42,487 nt of DNA, taken from the NCBI GenBank assembly GCA_005878985.1, contig VBMA01000079.1, forward strand, positions 1 to 42,487. Direction: 5' to 3'. The translations under genes and the position numbers were made by a program. The stretch's first letter is position 1; every line of letters begins with the position of its first letter. Source of the DNA: Methanobacteriota archaeon. Lineage in GTDB: Archaea; Thermoplasmatota; Thermoplasmata; RBG-16-68-12. The notes under the pieces are model-generated. The model saw only the letters and a program-made list of their open reading frames with translations, was not told the DNA's origin and searched no databases. Shown one piece after another: positions 8,480 through 42,487 of this stretch.

Positions 8480-8971
8480 GTGACCGTCCTCGGTGTCGAC
8501 ACGATCGCGATCGTCGTCTCCGATCCGCGAAAGGCGATTGCATGGTATCGGGATGTCCTGGGCCTGGACGTCGCCTACATCGGCCCGAGCGAGCCGAACC
8601 CGGATCCGAGCATTGAGGGGACGCCCGAGAACCCGGGCCACTGGGTGGAACTCGGACCGGGTCGCCCTCGCACTCGCGTCCACCTATGTTTCATGGGCGG
8701 TGAGACCGAGCCCGGGCCCGCGGGCATCACGTTCATCACGGATGACATCCAGGCGGAGTACGAACGGATGCGACACGCCGGCGTCGAGTTCCCGCTTCCG
8801 CCGGAGAAGATGGAATGGGGCGAGTGGCTCGGCCAGTTCGTGGATCCGGACGGGAACGTGTTCGACCTCAAGCAGCCGATCTCCATTGCGGAATGGAAGG
8901 CCCATCCCGCTCGCGCGAAGCCACGGAAGCGTCGTCGGTCAGATAGGCTCAGCCCGCCGACCCGGTTCTAG
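8480..8971 (+). CDS. VOC (glyoxalase/bleomycin-resistance) superfamily protein
   Basis: A 163-aa protein from GTG 8480, which opens directly with the typical first VOC strand (VTVLGVDTIAIVVSDP) and the AIAWYRDVLGLDV helix. The second half ends with FVDPDGNVFDLKQP, the standard closing strand. An ATG at 8393, inside the helicase tail, is an alternative start that would add 29 non-family residues. The usual metal ligands are only partly present: the first-strand His is absent and the final Glu is Asp, although RVHLCF keeps a His. Enzymatic function is therefore unclear; it may be a dioxygenase/isomerase relative or a binding protein. The C-terminus is basic (KPRKRRRSDR). The last 33 nt overlap convergently with the 3' end of the leftward TPR gene. 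Family call good, substrate unknown. Confidence 0.82.
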   Translation: MTVLGVDTIAIVVSDPRKAIAWYRDVLGLDVAYIGPSEPNPDPSIEGTPENPGHWVELGPGRPRTRVHLCFMGGETEPGPAGITFITDDIQAEYERMRHAGVEFPLPPEKMEWGEWLGQFVDPDGNVFDLKQPISIAEWKAHPARAKPRKRRRSDRLSPPTRF

Positions 8972-10888
8972 GCCCAACGCGCGATCGGCGCACGAGGCGG
9001 CTTCGTCGAATCGCCCGAGCTTCGTGAGGACAAAGCCCATGTTCACCCACGCGCCCCGGTACCGCGCATCGATCTCGAGGGCGCGCTCGTAGCATCCGAG
9101 CGCCTCGTCGAACTTCCCGAGGCGTGCGAGCGCGTTTCCCTTGTTGTTCCATGCGACCTCATAGGCGGGGTTCACCTTGATCGCGGCGTTGAAGCAACGC
9201 AGCGCGTCGATGAGACGACCAAGCTTCGTGAACGCGTTCCCCTTGTTCAACCAAGCGACCTCGTTGTGCGGGTTGATGTCGAGTGCCCGGTCAATCGCAC
9301 GCAGCGCCTCGTCGTACCGGCCGAGGAGGATGAGCGTCGCCCCCTTGCCGTACCACGGCATCTCCGCCCCCGTGACCCCCGGGCGCGCCGTGGCGATCGC
9401 GCGATCGTAATCCGCGAGTGATTGTTCGTAGTCTTTACGTCCCATGTCCCGCTCCGCTCGGACGAGTTGCCGCCGAAGGGTCGACGCCGAGTTTCGGCGC
9501 AAGATTTCCGCGGCCGCCAAGGCTGCAGGCCAAGGCATCGCTGCCCCGATGCCCGCGATCCACGGAACGCTCATTGCGTACGTGGAATCGATGACGGTGG
9601 CGACCGCATGACCGATGATGGGAACCGCGCTCGCGATAGCTAGCAGGATTCGATGAGGACCCCAGACCAGGTTCCGCGTGGCCCCGGCGAACGGTAGCAT
9701 GCCGACCAACGTGAGGCCGACCGCGGCGTTCGCGTCGAGCGGCAGCCCGCGCAAGAGCACCGCACTGATCGCGAGAATGGAACCTGCGGCCAGGAGCGCT
9801 CCGTCGAACCGAGGCGGCCCGGGACTCCGGCTTCGAACATACTCTGCAGCGAGACATGCGCTCAGACCGACGAGGAACGCGGCGATCCCTCCGCTGACGA
9901 GGGGCTGGTTCAGCACGCCCGCGAGGAGGAGGCTCGTCGATGCGGCGAGGACGAGCCCGCCGGCGGTCTCTGCGGTGACTCGAAGCTGGGCCTTGGGGCG
10001 GGTATTCTTTCGCGGGCTTCGCCCAGGAATTCCGGGCCGCATGCGGACCTTCGGAGATGGCGACGAAGCAATCGTAGCCGGTCCGGACGTCCCCGCTCCG
10101 ACCGTGAGGGGAGGCGCGAACTCTCCCGAGGGCGCGGGCTTGATCTCAGGCCGTTGCGGCATGGACTTCGGATGAACGGGCGGCGGACTCGGTGGGCGCG
10201 AGGCTAGTGGCTTGTCGGGGGCCGGCGCGGGTCTGAGAGGAGCGATTGCCGTCTTCACGGACGCGAGTGCGGGTTTCGAACTTGCGACGACCGGCACTGC
10301 AGGTGGTCGGGGGACATCGGAAACAGGCGGCCGCAACTCTTGGATGAACTCGTCGACCTTGTCGAGCACGGTGTTGACGGGAGCCGTCGCCGTTGCCTGT
10401 AGCCGGCTCGGGGTCTCTGTGGCGGCCAACGGGCTGGATTCCTTCGTCTCTCGCAGGGGTCCCCCGCAGACCTCGCATTCCTCCAGCTCGGGGTCGTTGT
10501 CCGCCCTACAGATGGGGCAGAGGCGCAAGTCCAGGATGTCCGCTTCCATGTCTTCCACGGTCGGCTCCGCCTCAAATTCGGCGGCACACCGCGGACACTT
10601 CGCGTCGCCCGACGCAACGAAGCCGCCGCAATTCGTGCAGATGAACAGGAGCCCGACCTCACCCTTCTCCAGCACTCCGTTCGGATCCCGGTCCCGCAGC
10701 TGCTTCGTATGGCGGAACCCGGCCTCGAACAGTTTCATGGCTTTCTCGCGGTCGAGCCCGAAGGCTCGGCTGAGCCGGACGACGGCCTCGTCGATGACAA
10801 AGGCCCCGCAGTTCGCGCACTCCGTCTCGTCGGGAGGCATGGGCTCCGCGCAGACGGGACACAGGACCCGGGCCTGCTTCCCGGGCAT
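8939..10888 (-). CDS. Zinc-ribbon, multi-pass membrane, TPR protein
   Basis: A 649-aa protein from ATG 10888. Three CxxC...CxxC zinc ribbons come first (Cys 10/13/24/27, 84/87/98/101, 124/127/138/141). A helix-hairpin-like segment FGLDREKAMKLFEAGF lies between the first two. Residues about 150-300 form a Pro/Ala/Lys-rich linker, 311-462 hold about five or six hydrophobic segments, and 480-642 form about four TPR units (for example LGRYDEALRAIDRALDINP). TPRs serve protein contacts and the ribbons may bind nucleic acid or protein, so a membrane-anchored scaffold is a reasonable inference. The N-terminal layout resembles that of the 1288-aa protein at 37630-41496. A TATA-like box (minus-strand GTTTATGG) at 10916-10923 lies about 30 nt before the ATG, implying a leaderless mRNA. 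No precise function can be assigned. Confidence 0.85.
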   Translation of the reverse strand: MPGKQARVLCPVCAEPMPPDETECANCGAFVIDEAVVRLSRAFGLDREKAMKLFEAGFRHTKQLRDRDPNGVLEKGEVGLLFICTNCGGFVASGDAKCPRCAAEFEAEPTVEDMEADILDLRLCPICRADNDPELEECEVCGGPLRETKESSPLAATETPSRLQATATAPVNTVLDKVDEFIQELRPPVSDVPRPPAVPVVASSKPALASVKTAIAPLRPAPAPDKPLASRPPSPPPVHPKSMPQRPEIKPAPSGEFAPPLTVGAGTSGPATIASSPSPKVRMRPGIPGRSPRKNTRPKAQLRVTAETAGGLVLAASTSLLLAGVLNQPLVSGGIAAFLVGLSACLAAEYVRSRSPGPPRFDGALLAAGSILAISAVLLRGLPLDANAAVGLTLVGMLPFAGATRNLVWGPHRILLAIASAVPIIGHAVATVIDSTYAMSVPWIAGIGAAMPWPAALAAAEILRRNSASTLRRQLVRAERDMGRKDYEQSLADYDRAIATARPGVTGAEMPWYGKGATLILLGRYDEALRAIDRALDINPHNEVAWLNKGNAFTKLGRLIDALRCFNAAIKVNPAYEVAWNNKGNALARLGKFDEALGCYERALEIDARYRGAWVNMGFVLTKLGRFDEAASCADRALGLEPGRRAEPI

Positions 10889-10915
10889 CGACGCGGATTC
10901 GAGCCGTCCGGCGGA

Positions 10916-10923
10916 CCATAAAC
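10916..10923 (-). promoter_or_regulatory. TATA-like box of the zinc-ribbon/TPR gene
   Basis: GTTTATGG on the minus strand, centred about 32 nt upstream of ATG 10888. With the plus-strand box near 10964-10975 it makes a compact divergent promoter region of 111 nt. Confidence 0.45.
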
Positions 10924-10963
10924 CCGCGGTCCCCGTTGTCAGGGTCGATAGTCGGCCCTCCGC

Positions 10964-10975
10964 GTTCTTAAGTAG
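10964..10975 (+). promoter_or_regulatory. TATA-like box of the PrsW-like gene
   Basis: GTTCTTAAGTAG is centred about 30 nt upstream of ATG 11000. No Shine-Dalgarno sequence precedes the ATG, which fits a leaderless transcript. Confidence 0.45.
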
Positions 10976-10999
10976 CGCACCGGCCTTCGCACACCATCG

Positions 11000-11731
11000 A
11001 TGGCCTCGAACCTGGATTTCCTGGTCGCTTTTCTGATGGGGATCCTGCCTGGCCTCGTCATCCTCTGGGCCTCGCTCCGACGCTTCGATCGACCGCACGT
11101 GGACCACACGCTGTTCGACGACCGCCGCGTCTTCGGAAGCCTCGCCGTCGGTCTCATCTTCGGGACCGTCGCGAGTGTCTTCGCCATCGTGCTGCCCCGC
11201 GGCGATCTCGCTTCGTTCGCGGTCGTCGTCGCGGTTAGCTTTGTCTTCGAGGAGTCATTCAAGCTCGTTTGGCTGAACCGCCGGAGCTACCGAGGTCGCT
11301 TCGACACGACTTTCTACGGCGTCCCTTTGGGGCTCGGGGCCGCCGCGAGCGGCGTCGTCGCGGCGGCCTGGGCGTCGCGGGAGATCCTGTACGTTCCGGA
11401 GACGTTCGTGTTGCTCGTTCTGTACTCGATCAGCCTCGGCCTGGTGAACGCCGACACCGGGGCGTTGATTGGCTTCGGGGCTTCCCGGGGTGACACGTGG
11501 CGCGCGTTCTTGAAGGCCGTCGGCGTCCGCCTCGCGCACGGAGCCTTCCTCTCTCCCTTCCTTCTCCAAGTCGACGAACCGTACGCGGCCCTTTCCGTCG
11601 TCACTTCCGCGGGTTTTGCCCTCCTGATTTACTATTACGTCTACCGAGAGATCCTGCCGGGCACGCTGCCTGACGACATCCGTCGGGAGCTGAGGCGAGA
11701 GCGGCGCCGCGCCCCGGTGGCTAGGGATTGA
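11000..11731 (+). CDS. PrsW-like intramembrane protease family protein
   Basis: A 243-aa polytopic membrane protein with about seven hydrophobic stretches and a basic cytoplasmic tail (RRELRRERRRAP). It carries the PrsW/CAAX-protease-like EExxK motif (EESFK, residues 84-88) at the end of a membrane helix, and a His at residue 180 in RLAHGAF that matches the third PrsW motif. The second motif, normally FxxxEN in a helix following YGxxxGxG, reads GLGAAASGVV here, so the expected Glu is missing. PrsW enzymes cut membrane anchors such as anti-sigma factors. With one catalytic acid gone this member may be inactive, may use another residue, or may belong to a divergent subfamily. It ends convergently with the next gene, sharing 11 nt. 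Family call moderate. Confidence 0.7.
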   Translation: MASNLDFLVAFLMGILPGLVILWASLRRFDRPHVDHTLFDDRRVFGSLAVGLIFGTVASVFAIVLPRGDLASFAVVVAVSFVFEESFKLVWLNRRSYRGRFDTTFYGVPLGLGAAASGVVAAAWASREILYVPETFVLLVLYSISLGLVNADTGALIGFGASRGDTWRAFLKAVGVRLAHGAFLSPFLLQVDEPYAALSVVTSAGFALLIYYYVYREILPGTLPDDIRRELRRERRRAPVARD

Positions 11732-31663: not shown

Positions 31664-32635
31664 TCAGACGATGTGGATCGTGCCGTACACGACGAGGCTC
31701 GTGACGAGGAAGCCCAGGAGGGCGCCGCCGTTCAGGAGGGGCAAACCGGCCTGCGGATTTCCCTTGAGGACGTATCGCATCAAGACGAAGAAGCCAACGA
31801 GGCTTCCGATGACGGTCCCCAACGCCACGGTCATGAACGGGGCGACCGGACCCAACGAGCGGCCCAGGAGCGCCGGATCGTTCAGGAACGTGAAGGCGGA
31901 TACGCTCAGGATCCCGGGGATGATGAGATCCCCTAACCCGATGAACATCGCTTCGCGTTCCTCCCCGGCGGCGATTTGACCTTTCAAGCTCTTCTGCTCC
32001 CGGAACGAATAGCCCGCCTTCTTCGGGATCACGAGGAGGATCGGGAGCCGCTGGCTCGTCAGCTCATCGGCGAGCGTGATCATGTGCTTCGTCCGGTACA
32101 CAGCCCATGCGTCGTAGACCGCGAGGGCCACGAGGAGGAGGATCGCGGGCAACAATCCGAACGAAATCCCCAGGATTGCCGTCACGCCGGCGGCGGTCAC
32201 GAAACCGATCGTGTCGACCACGTACCACTCCGGGAACTTCACGAGGAGGTAGAGCAAGACGGCCGCGACGGCGAACGAGAGCAGGGTCGCGACATTCGCG
32301 AGTGAGTTCAGGAAATTCGGGTCTTGGCTCTGCCCGGTCCCATACCACAATCCGTAGTACAGAGGCAGCAGCAGGACGAATGCGAGCGTGACGAAAATTG
32401 AGGCCATGATGACGTACTTCGCGAGGTTTTGCCGACGATAACGGACGAGCCCCAGAATCACCGCGGTGAAGACGAGGATCAGGATGATGTAGATCGCGGT
32501 GTTCGTGACGTCACTCGGGTTCGGGAACGCCTGGAAACCGCTGCTCTGGAACAAGGGCGAAAGCGCGATCGCGACCGCTTGGCTCGCGACCAAGAGCACC
32601 GCCATCGCCGCGACCGGAGCGTACTCGCGGCGCAT
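31664..32635 (-). CDS. Presenilin/signal-peptide-peptidase homologue (intramembrane aspartyl protease)
   Basis: A 323-aa membrane protein with about nine hydrophobic helices. The two catalytic aspartates are present: Asp175 in VYDAWAVY (YD motif) and Asp236 in FIGLGDLIIPG (GLGD motif). The third element appears as GLPLLNGG (PxL, residues 299-301). The long loop between the two (KKAGYSFREQKSLKG) is typical of archaeal PSH. It should cleave helices within the membrane, such as remnant signal peptides, though natural substrates are unknown. It starts 6 nt after the aIF2-beta stop and belongs to that operon with rps8e behind it. Confidence 0.92.
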   Translation of the reverse strand: MRREYAPVAAMAVLLVASQAVAIALSPLFQSSGFQAFPNPSDVTNTAIYIILILVFTAVILGLVRYRRQNLAKYVIMASIFVTLAFVLLLPLYYGLWYGTGQSQDPNFLNSLANVATLLSFAVAAVLLYLLVKFPEWYVVDTIGFVTAAGVTAILGISFGLLPAILLLVALAVYDAWAVYRTKHMITLADELTSQRLPILLVIPKKAGYSFREQKSLKGQIAAGEEREAMFIGLGDLIIPGILSVSAFTFLNDPALLGRSLGPVAPFMTVALGTVIGSLVGFFVLMRYVLKGNPQAGLPLLNGGALLGFLVTSLVVYGTIHIV

Positions 32636-35609: not shown

Positions 35610-36424
35610 CGTCCGACCGCACGACGAATCGTCCGGCGCCGCTTCTTCGTCCTCGGGGCTTTCACGCCGCCGGCGAGTGATCGGCGGAGCCCTCCGAGCC
35701 GCCATTCGAGGAAGGAGAACACGGCGGCCAGGTTCCCGCTCCGGCGGTACGCTCGGCGGACCCGTGCGGCTTCCGCAGGCACCGACTTGAGTTCGTCCAC
35801 GAACTTCTTGACGTTCAGGATGGCTCGCGTCAACTCGTCGACGATCGGGATGGTCGCTCGCTGGGAGGTCCGGGAGAGCGGATTCAAGTCGATACTGATG
35901 ACGACCTTGCCCATGCGCACAAGCGCCTCGGCGCGATCCCCATCTTCCAACGGCACGAGCACGACATCCGCCCCGAAAATCCCGTCTCGATGGGATACCG
36001 CTCGCTTCGATTCGATGCCCGGAATCCGCGCGTTCGGGCGCAGGCCGAGGACGTTTCGCGCCCCTGCTGTCTCGAGGATCCGGACGATTTTCTTCATGCG
36101 CGGTTCCGTCCGGTGGAACAAGTTCACCTCGATTCGGGCGGGGATCGCGCGCGCGAGCTGGACGACTTCCTTCGCCGCGAGAGCGGCCACGTTTCCATTT
36201 ACCGAGATCACCGGTCGGGATGCCGCCAGGAGATGGGCCGCGGCCGCTCGTTCTGCCACGAGGGCCGGCGCGCTCGTCCCTTCTCCAAATAGGTAGTCCC
36301 AAGCTTCCCCCCGGCCTTGCGCGACGAGTCCTTCGGGGACGACGATGCCCCGCTTCCACGCACGGACGAGGCGCTCCCGTCGGACGAGCGATTCGTACCG
36401 CGGGTGCGATCGGGGGATCGTCAT
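35597..36424 (-). CDS. 4-phosphopantoate--beta-alanine ligase (phosphopantothenate synthetase)
   Basis: A 275-aa archaeal enzyme of coenzyme A synthesis that joins phosphopantoate to beta-alanine, replacing bacterial PanC/CoaA. Diagnostic blocks are IPRSHPRYESLVRRERLV, GLVAQGRGEAWDYLFGE, AAAHLLAASRPVISVNGNVA, RIEVNLFHRTEPR and SIDLNPLSRTSQ. The start ATG 36424 overlaps the stop of the upstream DUF1611 gene as ATGA, a sign of translational coupling. The C-terminal 25 residues are Lys/Arg-rich (KAPRTKKRRRTIRRAV), unusual for the family. Pantoate kinase, its usual partner, is not in the window. Confidence 0.93.
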   Translation of the reverse strand: MTIPRSHPRYESLVRRERLVRAWKRGIVVPEGLVAQGRGEAWDYLFGEGTSAPALVAERAAAAHLLAASRPVISVNGNVAALAAKEVVQLARAIPARIEVNLFHRTEPRMKKIVRILETAGARNVLGLRPNARIPGIESKRAVSHRDGIFGADVVLVPLEDGDRAEALVRMGKVVISIDLNPLSRTSQRATIPIVDELTRAILNVKKFVDELKSVPAEAARVRRAYRRSGNLAAVFSFLEWRLGGLRRSLAGGVKAPRTKKRRRTIRRAVGRQRQ

Positions 36425-37485
36425 GTCATCCGCTGGATCGCAGCGACGAACTTCCCGCAGCCGTGCCAAAGGGGATCGGCGGTCGGGATTCCATATTTCT
36501 GCTCAAAGGTCCCCACGACGGCTTCTACCTCGTCTCGCGTCATGTTCTCATGGTTGATTCCGATGCCGACCACCTTCCCGCCGCCGATGCGGCGCGTGTA
36601 GAACTGGAGCCACTCGATCTCTTCGTCCACGGTCGGCATGGGCCACGCGACGATGTCCCGCCGGAACGACCGCGTCTTCCGGGCGGGCGCGTGCATCATC
36701 AGGATCGCGGACGGCATGGACGCCATGATGATCGCTCGGGTGCCGCACACGTACGCGGGATGGGAGATGCTCCCCTGGCCCTCGACGACAATCACGCGCG
36801 CTCGCGTTTCGTCGTAGGCGCGGACGACTTCGGATTCGAGTTCGCCGACCATGAAATCGGCCTTGATCGAGTCGAGCGGCACCCCGTACGCGGATCCCTG
36901 GAGGAGCCCGGTCTGGCCCGTGGCCACGAACGCGGCGGGTACGCCCGCGGCGTTCAACGCGTCGGTCAACAGGAGGGCTGTCGTCCGCTTCCCAATCGCC
37001 CCGTCCGTCCCGAGGACCGGGATCCGGAGGCACGGTAGCTTGCGGGCGAGATCGCTGAACTGCTTCGACTCCCGGATCGGCCGCGGCTTGCGGACGTCGA
37101 CCAAACGGGCTCCGTGGGCCTCCGCGAGCTTCACGAACTCCGGATCGTCGTTGAGGAACTCGTGCAGTCCCGCGACGACGTTCAGGCGATGCTCGATTGC
37201 CTCGCGGATGACGGGCCGGAACTCCTTCGGGATGTACCCGCCGAACGTCGCGACGCCGATGATCAGGGTCTCCGGCTGGCACCGTTCGATCGCTTCCTTC
37301 AAATTCGCGACGATCGGGACTCCGTTCGGTTTCCCGTCGAGCACGTCCCCGGCGTCCCGCCCGGCCTTCGTGTGATCGATGACGCCCGCGATCTCGTAAC
37401 GTTTCGAATATCGCACGAGGCCGTTCGCCGTCTTTCCCGTGCTCTGACCGAAATATCCGTCGCACAGGATGACGGCTTTCTCCAT
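36421..37485 (-). CDS. DUF1611 (COG3367) P-loop protein
   Basis: A 354-aa protein with an N-terminal Rossmann-like half (VILCDGYFG, IAGVIDHTKAGRDAGDV) and a C-terminal P-loop half. The nucleotide motif is GTDGAIGKRTT (159-169), followed by VEGQGSISHPAY. This is the DUF1611 family, to which bacterial DgcN, linked to D-glutamate metabolism, belongs. The archaeal role is not settled. ATG 37485 is used, with GAGG close before it and TATA-like GGCTTAATAGG and GATTATGG boxes near 37522-37545. Its stop overlaps the start of the phosphopantothenate synthetase gene by four bases, so a shared pathway is possible. Confidence 0.85.
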   Translation of the reverse strand: MEKAVILCDGYFGQSTGKTANGLVRYSKRYEIAGVIDHTKAGRDAGDVLDGKPNGVPIVANLKEAIERCQPETLIIGVATFGGYIPKEFRPVIREAIEHRLNVVAGLHEFLNDDPEFVKLAEAHGARLVDVRKPRPIRESKQFSDLARKLPCLRIPVLGTDGAIGKRTTALLLTDALNAAGVPAAFVATGQTGLLQGSAYGVPLDSIKADFMVGELESEVVRAYDETRARVIVVEGQGSISHPAYVCGTRAIIMASMPSAILMMHAPARKTRSFRRDIVAWPMPTVDEEIEWLQFYTRRIGGGKVVGIGINHENMTRDEVEAVVGTFEQKYGIPTADPLWHGCGKFVAAIQRMT

Positions 37486-37629
37486 GCCTCTTGTCCCCTG
37501 TGATAACAGCGGGCGAAAGTCCATAATCTCCTATTAAGCCTAAGCGCGCAGGCGACGCCTCATGGTCGCAGAATTCCGCGTCATTCAGAGCCCACGCGCT
37601 TCCCCCCTCCGCGATTCCGCCGAAGGGCG

Positions 37630-40600
37630 ATGGGAGGCGCGCCCGTGACGCAGAACGTCGAAAACCTCGGCCCCTGCAGCTCCTGCGGCGGGAAACTCTT
37701 CCCGTTCATCTTGTGCGAATCGTGCGGCGCGGCGACGATCCTGCGCGAGGCCCGCCAGCTCGAACGGGAGGCCACGTGTCCGGAATGCGGCGCCCGAAAC
37801 CCCTGGCAGGTCATCTGCGACCAGTGCCACTCTCGCTTCCGGGCGCCCGCCGCCGAGGAGGAACGGTCTCCCGCGGCCGCTCCAGGGGCGACGCCCGTGC
37901 CGGCCGCCGCGGGCCGTCCGAAGCGGCGCATCAACGGGGAATCGGACCCCGCCTCCCTCGTCCATCTGCTGAAGGTCCTCGGCCTCGACCCGTCCCGGGC
38001 CCAGGCGCTGATCGACCGCGGATACGATGCCCTCTGGAAGATCGCCCGGACCTCGGTCGACGAGCTCGCGCGGATCCCGGAGGTCGGGCCCGTCGCCGCG
38101 CACAAGATGCTCGCGTCCCTGCATCTCATCAAGTACACGCCACCTCGGCGCACGAAGGAGGAGATCGCCCAGGACGAGTACGAATGCCCGCTGTGCGGCT
38201 GCATCACCTCCATGTTTGCGCCGGCCTGCCTCGAATGCGGCGCCGCGTTCGACGAGGAGGAAATGGACGAGGCGATCCGTCAACAGTTCGCCGCCGAAGG
38301 CGACGCGGCGCTCATCGCGTTCTACGACGCCCGCCTCGCGGAGAAACCGGAGAACGCGGACCTGCTCTACGCCCGGGGTCTGCTCCTGCAGACGATGGGT
38401 CGGACCGACGAGGCGATGGCGGCTCTCGACCGTGCGGCCGCCGCCGCACCGGACGAACGAAAGATCAAGGTCGCCCAGCTGCGGATCCAAGCGAAGGAGC
38501 TTCGCAAACCGGACGCGGCCGAGAAGTTACGGTCCACCGCCAGCTCGCTCCTCGATGACGTCGCTTGGGACCAAGAGATCGCACAGCTCGACGACCTCCT
38601 TTCCGAGGAAGGACCCACCTGTCCGAGCTGCGGTTCCACGGTTCCGAGAAGTGTCGCTCTGTGTCCGTCGTGCGGCGCTCGCTTGGTCGCCGCCCTCCCG
38701 GAACCGGAGCACAAGCCGGCGCCGGGCGGAGCTCCGGAGTTGGACATCCTCGTCGACGACCTCCTCGTCGGCGAGTTAGAGAAGTCCCTCAGTCCAGAAG
38801 AACTCGAACTCACGAAGGCCGCGGTCCTCGATTGGCTCATCGAGGAACTCGAGGAGACGATGGGCGTCGATGCGACGATCAAGGCCGCCGCAGAGAAGCG
38901 TGACGAGACGAAGGCGCCGGCGGAGCCGTCGCCCGTTCCGCCGGCCATCGGATTCCTGTCCGGGTGGATCCGCGGGAGCAAGGGGCTTGTCAGTGGAGCG
39001 CGTCCCAAGACGACGACCCGCGGGGCCGGGAAAGTCAATGGGCTGGTCAACGGCCGAGGTCGGGTGAATGGCCTCGTCAACGGACTCGGTCGCACGAACG
39101 GCCTCGTGAACGGCGTCGGCCGGGTTAACGGTCTCGTCACTCCCACGGGGCGGGTGAACGGGTTGATGGGCGAACAAGGGCGGGTCAACGGAACGATTGG
39201 AGGGACGCGATCCGTCCGGGCGGGACGAAAGGAGATCCGTCTCTCTGTTCCGACGAAGCGCGTGCGGTACGCCGCAATCGCAGCCGCGACGCTCATCGCG
39301 ATATTGATTGCCGGCTTCCTGTTCATCCCAATCCCGGGACCCACGCCGCGGATCGTGATCGACGGGTCGTTCGGCGATTGGGCCTCCGTGCCGATGTTCG
39401 ACGCCGTGTCGGTCGCATCCGATGCGAACGTGTCGATCGACCATTACGCGAGTCTCCTGGATGACCACTCGCTCTACCTGTTTGCGTCGACCCGCGGCGG
39501 GATGTTCGGTGATTCGTCCGCGTACGACGGCATCTACTTCCTGATTGATGCGGACGGCAACCCGTCCACAGGCTACCAGTTCGACGGGATTGGGGCCGAA
39601 GCGGTCCTCGAGATCTTCGGCGGCAATAACTCGGTCGCAGGTTCTAGGCTCTATGGCTTCCCGAACAATGCCGAAGTCAACTGGAGCCAGCGGCAGTCGA
39701 TTGGCTCACCGCCGGCGGCCGCCTCCGTTCAGGGCGTCGAAGCGCAGGTCTCGACGTACGATCTCACCGGATTCGACCCGGGGAATTTCCGCATCGCGGT
39801 CTTGGCCGACGACTTCGCGGGGGTTTCTAGTCGTAGCCTCGCGCCGCTCACGCCCGACGGTTCGGTTCTCCTCGACCTGCAGCCCGTCACATCCGTCGTC
39901 AACAGCACGACGGCTCCGTTGTTCACAATCCGGGTACATGCCCTTGGCCTACCGGCTGGGGCTTCATGGGGAGTCTCCGCTTTCGCTTACAACGCGACCT
40001 CGGGGCTGACGGTCTTCCTATCCGCGGCATCGGTGGTCTTGACCCAGGGTCAGCCACAAGCCACGATCACGGCGTCCGCCTTGGCCGCCGGGGTTCCATC
40101 GGGCGATGTCGTCCAAGTCGATGTGACCAACGCGACGGCCCCCGTTCCCGTCGTCGTTCGGGGAGGGCCGATTCGTGCGTACATGCTTGCGCCTCCGTCC
40201 ACCGTGCGGATTGATGGCCTATTCGTGGACTGGGCTGGGAGGGACCAGATTGATTCGGATTCGGTGCCCGTGAAGAATCCCGACATAGACATCCTTCGGT
40301 ACGGTGCTGCGGTCAACACGTCGACTGCATACTTCCATGTGGCAGTCGCAGGCGACCTAATGGCGGGACGCGTCCCCGATCGGTTCATTCGCCTGCCACC
40401 CGGGCAGGGAGGGAACGGGTCGGGCGGACCGCCCATCCCAATTCCACGTCGCACCGGCGAAGACATCCTCCGGGCCTACATCGATCTGAATTCCACCGAC
40501 AACGTCGGCTTGCCATTCGACGGAATCTACGCAGACTACATGCTCGAAATCCGGGGCGTTGCGGGGCGGATCACGGCGCGGACTTTGTATGCCTGGACGG

Positions 40601-41496
40601 GGTCCTGGTCTCCTGTCGCGGCGCCCTCTGTGGCCCTGGCGAAGAACGACACTGAAATTGAAGGGTCCGTCACGATAGGCCCGTTCACGAACTTGACCCG
40701 GATGGCATTCGCTACCACGGATTGGGGCGGAATAGGCGATACCACACTCCAAGGCGGGACTCAAGTCTCAGCTTCGGCTTTGACGAAGATCTCTGGACAA
40801 GCGCCCCGTGGCGACCCCGGGCTGATCATCGATTCCGGCTCGAACCCGCAGACGGCCTACGCAACCCCCCTCGCGAACGAGCCCGTTGTCGACGGAAACT
40901 GCGGTACCACTTCCGGCGAATATAGTGGCGCTAGCGTGGCCAACAACGGCGATCTCCGGTTCCTCGTGGGACGCAGTTCGCTGGCTAGCTACGTCTTCGT
41001 GTGTCTCGAAGTGACAGCCGACGGGACGAACGACGGGACCTCGGACTGGGGTGAGCTTCTTTTCCGCCAGAACCCAAGCGATACTTCGACATTGCCTAAA
41101 ACGGGCGATCGGCGGTTCCGAGCCACGAGTGGTGTGCCAGGTAGCTTCACACAGGAAATGGGAAGTGGAACCGTGTGGACCTCGTGCGCAGGGACCTGCG
41201 ACACACTGAATACTGGAAAGGGCAAGTTCAACAACTCGGTCCAAACCTACGAATTCATGATTCGTCTTTCCGACGTCTGGGGGACGGACACACCTCTCCC
41301 GAGCCAGACATCCGGATTCGCTATCGTAGCGTTCAACAACACAGGTTCTGCGACCTATGCCTGGGGGTCTGACAATGTAGACGAAAACAATCCAAATTCG
41401 TGGGGCCTAGTTGAAATTCCGGAGTTCCCGAATGTTGTGTTCACCGCGGTTGCAATTATCGTCGTGGTGGGCTGGATTCGACGTCGACGCTCCTAA
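37630..41496 (+). CDS. Mosaic surface protein: zinc ribbons, HhH, TPR, NGLVNG repeats, IDG-DW domains
   Basis: A 1288-aa two-pass protein. Cytoplasmic side: zinc ribbons with Cys 16/19/29/32, 50/53/63/66, 186/189/200/203 and 331/334/345/348; a helix-hairpin-helix segment (108-165); one or two TPR units (242-275); then six decapeptide repeats (467-526). A basic stretch and a membrane helix follow (547-567). Outside are three related IDG..DW-type beta domains starting near 575, 859 and 1085, resembling CBM9/DOMON-like sugar- or haem-binding folds. The C-terminus IPEFPNVVF, a helix and RRRRS resembles archaeal PEF-type sorting signals. Together this suggests a cell-surface ligand protein wired to a cytoplasmic scaffold, but the function is not known. 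GC content falls towards the 3' end. ATG 37630 is used; GTG 37645 is possible. Confidence 0.85.
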   Translation: MGGAPVTQNVENLGPCSSCGGKLFPFILCESCGAATILREARQLEREATCPECGARNPWQVICDQCHSRFRAPAAEEERSPAAAPGATPVPAAAGRPKRRINGESDPASLVHLLKVLGLDPSRAQALIDRGYDALWKIARTSVDELARIPEVGPVAAHKMLASLHLIKYTPPRRTKEEIAQDEYECPLCGCITSMFAPACLECGAAFDEEEMDEAIRQQFAAEGDAALIAFYDARLAEKPENADLLYARGLLLQTMGRTDEAMAALDRAAAAAPDERKIKVAQLRIQAKELRKPDAAEKLRSTASSLLDDVAWDQEIAQLDDLLSEEGPTCPSCGSTVPRSVALCPSCGARLVAALPEPEHKPAPGGAPELDILVDDLLVGELEKSLSPEELELTKAAVLDWLIEELEETMGVDATIKAAAEKRDETKAPAEPSPVPPAIGFLSGWIRGSKGLVSGARPKTTTRGAGKVNGLVNGRGRVNGLVNGLGRTNGLVNGVGRVNGLVTPTGRVNGLMGEQGRVNGTIGGTRSVRAGRKEIRLSVPTKRVRYAAIAAATLIAILIAGFLFIPIPGPTPRIVIDGSFGDWASVPMFDAVSVASDANVSIDHYASLLDDHSLYLFASTRGGMFGDSSAYDGIYFLIDADGNPSTGYQFDGIGAEAVLEIFGGNNSVAGSRLYGFPNNAEVNWSQRQSIGSPPAAASVQGVEAQVSTYDLTGFDPGNFRIAVLADDFAGVSSRSLAPLTPDGSVLLDLQPVTSVVNSTTAPLFTIRVHALGLPAGASWGVSAFAYNATSGLTVFLSAASVVLTQGQPQATITASALAAGVPSGDVVQVDVTNATAPVPVVVRGGPIRAYMLAPPSTVRIDGLFVDWAGRDQIDSDSVPVKNPDIDILRYGAAVNTSTAYFHVAVAGDLMAGRVPDRFIRLPPGQGGNGSGGPPIPIPRRTGEDILRAYIDLNSTDNVGLPFDGIYADYMLEIRGVAGRITARTLYAWTGSWSPVAAPSVALAKNDTEIEGSVTIGPFTNLTRMAFATTDWGGIGDTTLQGGTQVSASALTKISGQAPRGDPGLIIDSGSNPQTAYATPLANEPVVDGNCGTTSGEYSGASVANNGDLRFLVGRSSLASYVFVCLEVTADGTNDGTSDWGELLFRQNPSDTSTLPKTGDRRFRATSGVPGSFTQEMGSGTVWTSCAGTCDTLNTGKGKFNNSVQTYEFMIRLSDVWGTDTPLPSQTSGFAIVAFNNTGSATYAWGSDNVDENNPNSWGLVEIPEFPNVVFTAVAIIVVVGWIRRRRS
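39028..39207 (+). repeat. Six tandem 30-nt units encoding GRVNGLVNGx
   Basis: Units start at 39028, 39058, 39088, 39118, 39148 and 39178. The first three are near-perfect at the protein level (G-[KR]-[VT]-N-G-L-V-N-G-x). The last three keep GRVNG and diverge after it. Codons differ among copies (AAT/AAC, GGT/GGC/GGG), so selection is on the peptide, not on the DNA. The repeats lie just before the membrane helix of the mosaic protein. Confidence 0.9.
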
Positions 41497-41529
41497 GGTA
41501 CTTCTAAAACCACGCCGTTCACACTCCCG

Positions 41530-42487
41530 TGGAACTCGGCCTCGTTGGCAAGCCAAATGTGGGCAAGTCGACCTTTTTCGCCGCGGCTACCCAAGTCCCG
41601 GTTCAGATTGCAAACTATCCTTTCACGACAATCGAGGCGAATCGAGGCGTGGCTTTCGTGCGCAAGGCGTGCCCACACAAAGAGATTGGCCGGCCTTGCA
41701 ACCCGAAAAACGCGCCGTGCGAGTCGGGCACGCGTCTCATCCCCGTCGAACTGCTGGATGTCGCCGGTCTCGTTCCAAAGGCGCATGAGGGCCGTGGTCT
41801 CGGCAACAAATTCCTCGACGACCTCCGTCAAGCAAGTGCACTCGTCCACGTGATCGACGCAACCGGAGGCACTGATTTCGAGGGAAACCCCGTACCTCCC
41901 GGAACTCACGACCCCGTAGCAGATGTGCAGTTCCTCGAAGAGGAGCTTGTACACTGGATTGCCGGAATTCTCTCCCGCAACTGGGAGAAGGAGGCCCGCC
42001 GCGCCGACCTCGAGGAGGCTCCGCCGGAGAAGATCATGTCCGCCCGGCTCACTGGCCTGGGGTTCACGGAGATGCAAGTCCACGCGGCGGTCAGGGACAC
42101 TGCACTAGATCCGAAGATGGCCCGGTGGACATCGGAGGATCTCTTCCACCTTGCGCGAACATTGCAACATCGGGGCAAGCCCATGCTCCTCGCAGCGAAC
42201 AAGGCCGATATGGTCTCCCGCGAACCGCTCCAGAATCTCTCGAAAGCCGCGGGCTACCTGGTGGTCCCGACATCCGCCGAGTACGAGCTCGCTCTTCGCC
42301 GGGCGGCGTCTGCCGGGCTGATCACATACCAGCCCGGTGGTTCCTCCTTCGAAGTCCTGCATCCGGAAAAACTGACCGCGGCTCAGGAAAAAGGTCTCGA
42401 GAAAATTCGAGCTTTCCTGAGAGAACGCGGGTCCACGGGCATCCAGCAGTGCATCGAAGAGGCGGTCTTCAAACTCCTCGACCTGAT
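41530..42487 (+). CDS. YchF-like OBG-family GTPase/ATPase, truncated by window end
   Basis: The first 319 codons of a translation-factor-class P-loop NTPase, starting at GTG 41530 (VELGLVGKPNVGKSTFF). G1 is GKPNVGKST, the G2/switch region is IANYPFTTIEANRG, G3 is DVAGLVPKAHEG and G4 is NKAD. The inserted KACPHKEIGRPCNPKNAPC segment and the FLDDLRQASALVHVIDATGG block are typical of archaeal YchF-related proteins of the MJ1332 type, which act with ribosomes. Such proteins usually continue with a TGS domain, which lies beyond the edge. A TATA-like CTTCTAAAACC (41503-41513) is 20-25 nt upstream, suggesting a leaderless GTG start. Confidence 0.93.

Follow-up and report, generated by a model that had tools for sequence, protein, structure and literature searches.

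A Thermoplasmatota membrane protein with a predicted cytoplasmic zinc-ribbon head, a juxtamembrane Asn-Gly array and an archaeosortase-type tail belongs to a modular family

The gene described here lies near one end of a 42,487-nucleotide archaeal contig (VBMA01000079.1, assembly GCA_005878985.1; Thermoplasmatota), the whole of which is called the window below. It encodes, as the original prediction stated, one chain of 1288 residues; the frame is single, opens with ATG and is free of stops. From the N terminus, two zinc-ribbon pairs, a helix-hairpin-helix (HHH) region, a third ribbon pair, a TPR region and a fourth ribbon pair make up the head; Asn-Gly (NG) repeats, a transmembrane helix (TM1), three beta domains (D1, D2 and D3) and a tail of PEF, helix and arginines follow. 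The features, with the analyses that define them, are:

36421-37524, minus strand: DUF1611 protein, the upstream divergent neighbor (locus comparison)
37630-41496, plus strand: whole gene, 1288 residues (ORF reading, Pfam, motif and transmembrane scans)
37675-37725, plus strand: zinc ribbon pair 1, residues 16-32 (CxxC motifs, conserved cysteines)
37777-37827, plus strand: zinc ribbon pair 2, residues 50-66 (CxxC motifs, conserved cysteines)
37963-38121, plus strand: helix-hairpin-helix HHH_5, residues 112-164 (Pfam)
38185-38238, plus strand: zinc ribbon pair 3, residues 186-203 (CxxC motifs, conserved cysteines)
38308-38487, plus strand: TPR, residues 227-286 (Pfam, PDB profile and head fold searches)
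38620-38673, plus strand: zinc ribbon pair 4, residues 331-348 (Pfam scan, CxxC motifs, conserved cysteines)
39034-39213, plus strand: NG repeat array, residues 469-528, predicted cytoplasmic and juxtamembrane (repeat and family analysis)
39271-39327, plus strand: TM1, predicted signal anchor, N-in, residues 548-566 (transmembrane scan, family charge bias)
39337-39864, plus strand: D1, IDG..DW CBM9-like beta domain, residues 570-745 (structure model, hhalign, PDB search)
40186-40746, plus strand: D2, IDG..DW beta domain homologous to D1, residues 853-1039 (structure model, hhalign)
40849-41415, plus strand: D3, separate beta domain of only some members, residues 1074-1262 (structure model, hhalign)
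41419-41490, plus strand: archaeosortase-type tripartite signal of PEF motif (residues 1264-1266), second transmembrane helix (TM2) and RRRR cluster (transmembrane scan, tail comparison)
41529-42485, plus strand: Obg/YGR210-like GTPase, the downstream conserved neighbor, which runs off the window (locus comparison)

The head has the composition that had been read from it. Eight CxxC motifs at residues 16/29, 50/63, 186/200 and 331/345 form the four predicted ribbon pairs, and in an alignment of 23 sequences nearly all retain the head cysteines. HHH_5 passes the Pfam cut-off (E 1.3e-7), and a PDB profile search of the head also returns HHH of the RadA/eL32 type. The TPR region is under the cut-off in the window protein (E 4e-5) and clear in its relatives; a fold search with the head returned chiefly TPR proteins, with nothing matching at E 0.001. 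A helical stretch lies between ribbon pair 4 and the NG repeats. Elsewhere in the window (8939-11107, minus strand) another zinc-ribbon and TPR protein is encoded, a membrane protein with three ribbon pairs, about four transmembrane helices, C-terminal TPRs and no NG array.

The repeat, described at the outset as a six-fold NGLVNG decapeptide, does consist of six units starting at residue 469, three of which show VNGLVNG or TNGLVNG in full. Nine NG motifs fall within 60 residues, compared with a maximum of five among 5000 shuffles of the protein. Among the first four units, 6-9 of 10 residues match but no more than 17-23 of 30 bases do, a pattern suggestive of selection at the protein level. 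Tandem duplication of the array at the DNA level is unsupported, as the codons have diverged.

Far from being a single mosaic oddity, as first supposed, the gene belongs to a modular family with few genes per genome. Open reading frames with at least four clustered NG motifs followed by a transmembrane helix were collected, giving 70 distinct members; this selection is partly circular, but an unbiased DNA pattern search agrees with it. Members have in common the NG array, a transmembrane helix 12-33 residues beyond its final NG (the range observed in all 70) and an outward topology. The window protein shows the array at this distance from its signal-anchor helix, the IDG..DW pair and a tail of PE, helix and arginines. 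Across the family, the spacing from one NG to the next is mostly even (4, 339 cases; 6, 180; 2, 74; 10, 45) and rarely odd (3, one case; 5, two cases), and arrays vary from 4 to 29 units. Most genomes checked hold one to about six arrays; figures of 10-24 copies per genome were counts of aligned pieces, not genes. A single-contig genome (G035) has six array loci: a transmembrane helix follows in five, and the sixth is N-masked past the array. In a further genome (G024) a helix follows six of six arrays. The genome of the window has three NG arrays, each in such a protein, and a fourth pattern match (contig C197) that is a chance site with no NG protein. Its other two members are a KaiC-ribbon protein (C53) and an HHH-ribbon-TPR protein with DUF11 and a lamin tail (C93).

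Scanning of 42 heads found TPR in about 27, zinc ribbons in 26, HHH_5 in 18 and a KaiC-type ATPase in 10, and some members have almost no head ahead of the array; FG-GAP, DUF11 and lamin-tail domains are among those found in distal ectodomains. Judged from sequence, heads (zinc ribbons, TPR, HHH, KaiC ATPase or none) and distal ectodomains are interchangeable. Two loci (L055:4083-9929, minus strand; L038:2281-4761, plus strand) encode fusions of KaiC-type ATPase, zinc ribbon, NG array, transmembrane helix and ectodomain.

The membrane helix of the original prediction is found as TM1, and TM2 spans residues 1265-1283. Lysines and arginines are more numerous before TM1 than after it in 69 of the 70 members (mean 4.2 versus 0.7). 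N-glycosylation sequons in the same 70 are enriched after TM1 (660 observed, 412 expected) and depleted before it (88 observed, 120 expected). Together with the spacing between array and TM1, these biases argue that the NG array is cytoplasmic and the ectodomain outside. The KaiC ATPase heads would need cytoplasmic ATP and were counted for the same topology. A head and NG repeats inside, D1-D2-D3 outside and TM1 as a predicted uncleaved signal anchor are thus well supported. An intracellular scaffold joined to a receptor or surface anchor had been proposed for this layout: the topology stands, with the scaffold head cytoplasmic and the ectodomain outside, and of the two roles the features shared across the family favor the anchor.

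The structure model of the ectodomain (693 residues) is confident (pLDDT 85) and rich in beta structure. Of the three IDG..DW domains announced for it, two are found: D1 and D2 are homologous (hhalign probability 99.7), and D3 has no detectable homology to either (8.1 and 0.3). The best PDB sequence match of D1 is a xylanase domain (7nwn) at an E value of only 0.04, whose chain we read from its sequence as probably CBM9-type. CBM9 domains share with D1 the IDG..D.W start and, as modelled for D1, a beta-rich fold, but no member passes the Pfam CBM9_1 cut-off (best E 0.054 in the ectodomain set, 0.019 in the D3 set); we therefore name the domains CBM9-like and nothing stronger. A PDB fold search with the whole ectodomain gave unspecific multi-domain beta matches only. 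The start of D1 also matches Firmicu-CTERM (TIGR04145) weakly, at 25 bits or half of the cut-off of 50. That family, named after Firmicutes, likewise joins a beta domain to a sorting tail; to our knowledge, neither an NG array nor a head is expected in it.

The C-terminal signal foreseen for the chain is present as IPEF-helix-RRRRS; residues 1264-1287 hold the PEF, helix and basic cluster typical of archaeosortase C substrates. In 50 of 53 complete tails of the family PE(F/L/G/Y) stands near the end, nearly always as PEF, with a helix and Arg/Lys after it. The TIGR03024 model of PEF-CTERM finds nothing in the window protein at E 1 and scores 15 bits in relatives, for a cut-off of 23. An N-terminal export signal peptide is absent from the window protein, in which a head of 547 residues precedes the internal helix.

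PEF-CTERM is recognized by archaeosortase C (PMC5244752), and ArtA of Haloferax cleaves a similar tripartite signal and attaches a lipid (PMC8559796, PMC7157517). An archaeosortase is present in 22 of 37 genomes of the order to which the window belongs, as an ArtA-like or an ArtC-like type. With TIGR03762 (ArtC), whose cut-off is 100 bits, the ArtC-like enzymes reach 60-72 bits; a full-score ArtC (361 bits) occurs in genome G067. Domain searches of the window's own genome with PF09721 and TIGR04178 found no archaeosortase, a negative that proved misleading: an ArtC-like query from the same genus finds a copy that lies at a contig end and is split over three frames (G000 C42:11-1227, minus strand). 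Assembly errors or decay, either of the two, may account for the broken frames; the gene is intact in genomes of the same genus. In the phylum sample, archaeosortase occurs in eight of eight family-positive genomes outside the order and in none of the 19 family-negative genomes listed from the same class; as this sample is small and phylogenetically structured, the co-occurrence is supporting evidence only.

The ArtC-like enzymes of the order (L156:625-1914, L153:5796-7004, L154:5769-7076, and also in L151 and L152) end in a RING/PHD-like Cys-His cluster (CxxC..CxCG..H..C..CxxC) that the G067 ArtC does not have; a cytoplasmic zinc finger on a sortase seems unusual. Beside one of these genes lies a multi-transmembrane gene (L156:1922-3454) that NCBIfam assigns to MOP/Wzx-type flippases, and a multi-transmembrane gene, judged from length and helix count only, is also near the archaeosortase in L151, L152 and L155.

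The two closest proteins, from the same genus, are about 81% identical over most of the chain; one same-genus protein aligns with the entire chain, at 81%, and other relatives are about 60% identical across residues 3-1049. The order from head to ectodomain is found again, within one open reading frame, in several families of this archaeal order; its uninterrupted repetition in many independent MAGs shows that the gene is no fusion artefact. The neighborhood is conserved as well, with the Obg/YGR210-like GTPase on one side and a phosphopantothenate/pantothenate synthetase plus, in most loci, DUF1611 on the other. In loci L056-L065 and L069 a gene for a protein of 232-245 residues precedes the head gene; both proteins scanned are TPR proteins. 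Where starts are unambiguous, this partner gene overlaps the head gene by 4 bp or is separated from it by a gap within about 5 bp. Orthologous loci usually have it abutting the head gene; in other families of the order it sits between the DUF1611 gene and the head gene, and by locus comparison it is missing from the window's own subclade. Farther away in the window (31664-32635, minus strand) lies a gene for an SPP/presenilin-type intramembrane aspartyl protease, which is found in most related loci that reach that far.

Comparison with known systems locates the protein close to, and outside, the PEF-CTERM/archaeosortase C system (TIGR03024/TIGR03762). It shares with that system the PEF, the hydrophobic helix and the basic C-terminal cluster, and an ArtC-type enzyme exists both in the order and in G067. 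It differs in having no N-terminal signal peptide and, instead, a large cytoplasmic head and an internal signal anchor; both the protein and the enzymes of the order fall under the curated cut-offs, and the latter add the zinc-finger-like tail. Since it scores too low with the curated model and has no signal peptide at the N terminus, we do not file the protein as a standard PEF-CTERM member; we regard it as an apparently undescribed variant among archaeosortase-substrate surface proteins. The ArtA substrates, PGF-CTERM proteins such as the Haloferax S-layer glycoprotein, also carry a tripartite C-terminal signal that leads to cleavage and lipid anchoring (PMC8559796, PMC7157517), and are exported through Sec or Tat signals (PMC7157517). 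Their motif is PGF, unlike the PEF of the window protein. We know of no ArtA substrate with a cytoplasmic part. The expectation that no described family has this domain order holds for Pfam, NCBIfam, the PDB and the open-access literature searched, in which no description of NGLTNG or of this architecture was found. The paper on Ca. Angelarchaeales (PMC9038741), which is probably the order of the window, mentions neither zinc ribbons nor tetratricopeptide nor sortases.

Our preferred reading, to which we give an even chance, is that the protein is an envelope-to-cytoplasm anchor, a membrane-spanning surface protein linking a cytoplasmic scaffold to the outer cell face. Sequence evidence supports TM1 as an uncleaved signal anchor that keeps the head with its NG repeats in the cytoplasm and D1-D2-D3 on the outer side. 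An ArtC-like archaeosortase would cut at PEF and attach a lipid, tethering both ends of the ectodomain to the membrane. The zinc ribbons, HHH and TPR of the head may form a cytoplasmic scaffold with the TPR protein of the abutting gene, where present; the NG array, the sole cytoplasmic element common to all members, could be a shared handle for clustering or docking, and the CBM9-like domains may bind a surface glycan or glycoprotein. More tentatively, and with a probability that we place well short of even, these proteins may constitute a trans-envelope scaffold system of Thermoplasmatota, in which archaeosortase substrates with swappable heads, ATPase included, self-associate through their NG arrays and anchor the cytoplasmic face to the surface layer, each molecule doing so at two points.

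The main rival is a receptor whose ectodomain senses a ligand and whose paralogue-variable head relays the signal inside. The swapping of heads on a constant membrane-proximal part is what a receptor would display, and the KaiC and HHH/zinc-ribbon heads resemble signaling or nucleic-acid-binding modules; however, no histidine kinase or other known output domain is seen, a lipidated C terminus would restrain the ectodomain, and nearly headless members exist. We regard this reading as possible and rather doubtful. A plain adhesin or surface-layer component, with the array a mere flexible spacer and the head lacking a specific partner, is unlikely: arrays of such variable length could be flexible and FG-GAP, DUF11 and lamin-tail domains are typical surface modules, yet members from different classes retain the NG unit with its mostly even intervals (4, 6, 2), with codons that have diverged in the window array, and the head cysteines, HHH, TPR and gene neighborhood are conserved.

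Regulated release, in which a signal-peptide-peptidase-type protease would cut TM1 and free the zinc-ribbon/HHH head as a regulator, seems to us very improbable. SPP cuts type II segments, the orientation of TM1, and the homologue in the window is kept in most related loci that reach it; its gene, though, lies on the opposite strand amid housekeeping genes and may be a mere passenger, an HHH does not show DNA binding, and KaiC or TPR heads need no release. Another alternative is that assembly or a frameshift joined two genes. The combination of a cytoplasmic-type head with a surface-type remainder and the fragmentation of MAG contigs would fit this, but the frame is single and open, many independent MAGs show the same order, and complete single-contig genomes carry a simpler version, which leaves it next to no probability.

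With the anchor as the preferred reading, the NG-array proteins are apparently a large, undescribed family tying the archaeal cell interior to the surface. Archaea have no peptidoglycan, and the mechanical or informational coupling of their cytoplasm to a protein surface is little known. A family that unites in one chain a sortase-type tail, a surface domain, a membrane anchor and a cytoplasmic scaffold or ATPase would give a direct handle on this coupling. Archaeosortase substrates, so far exported proteins, would then include transmembrane proteins too, and the juxtamembrane Asn-Gly array offers a testable new motif.
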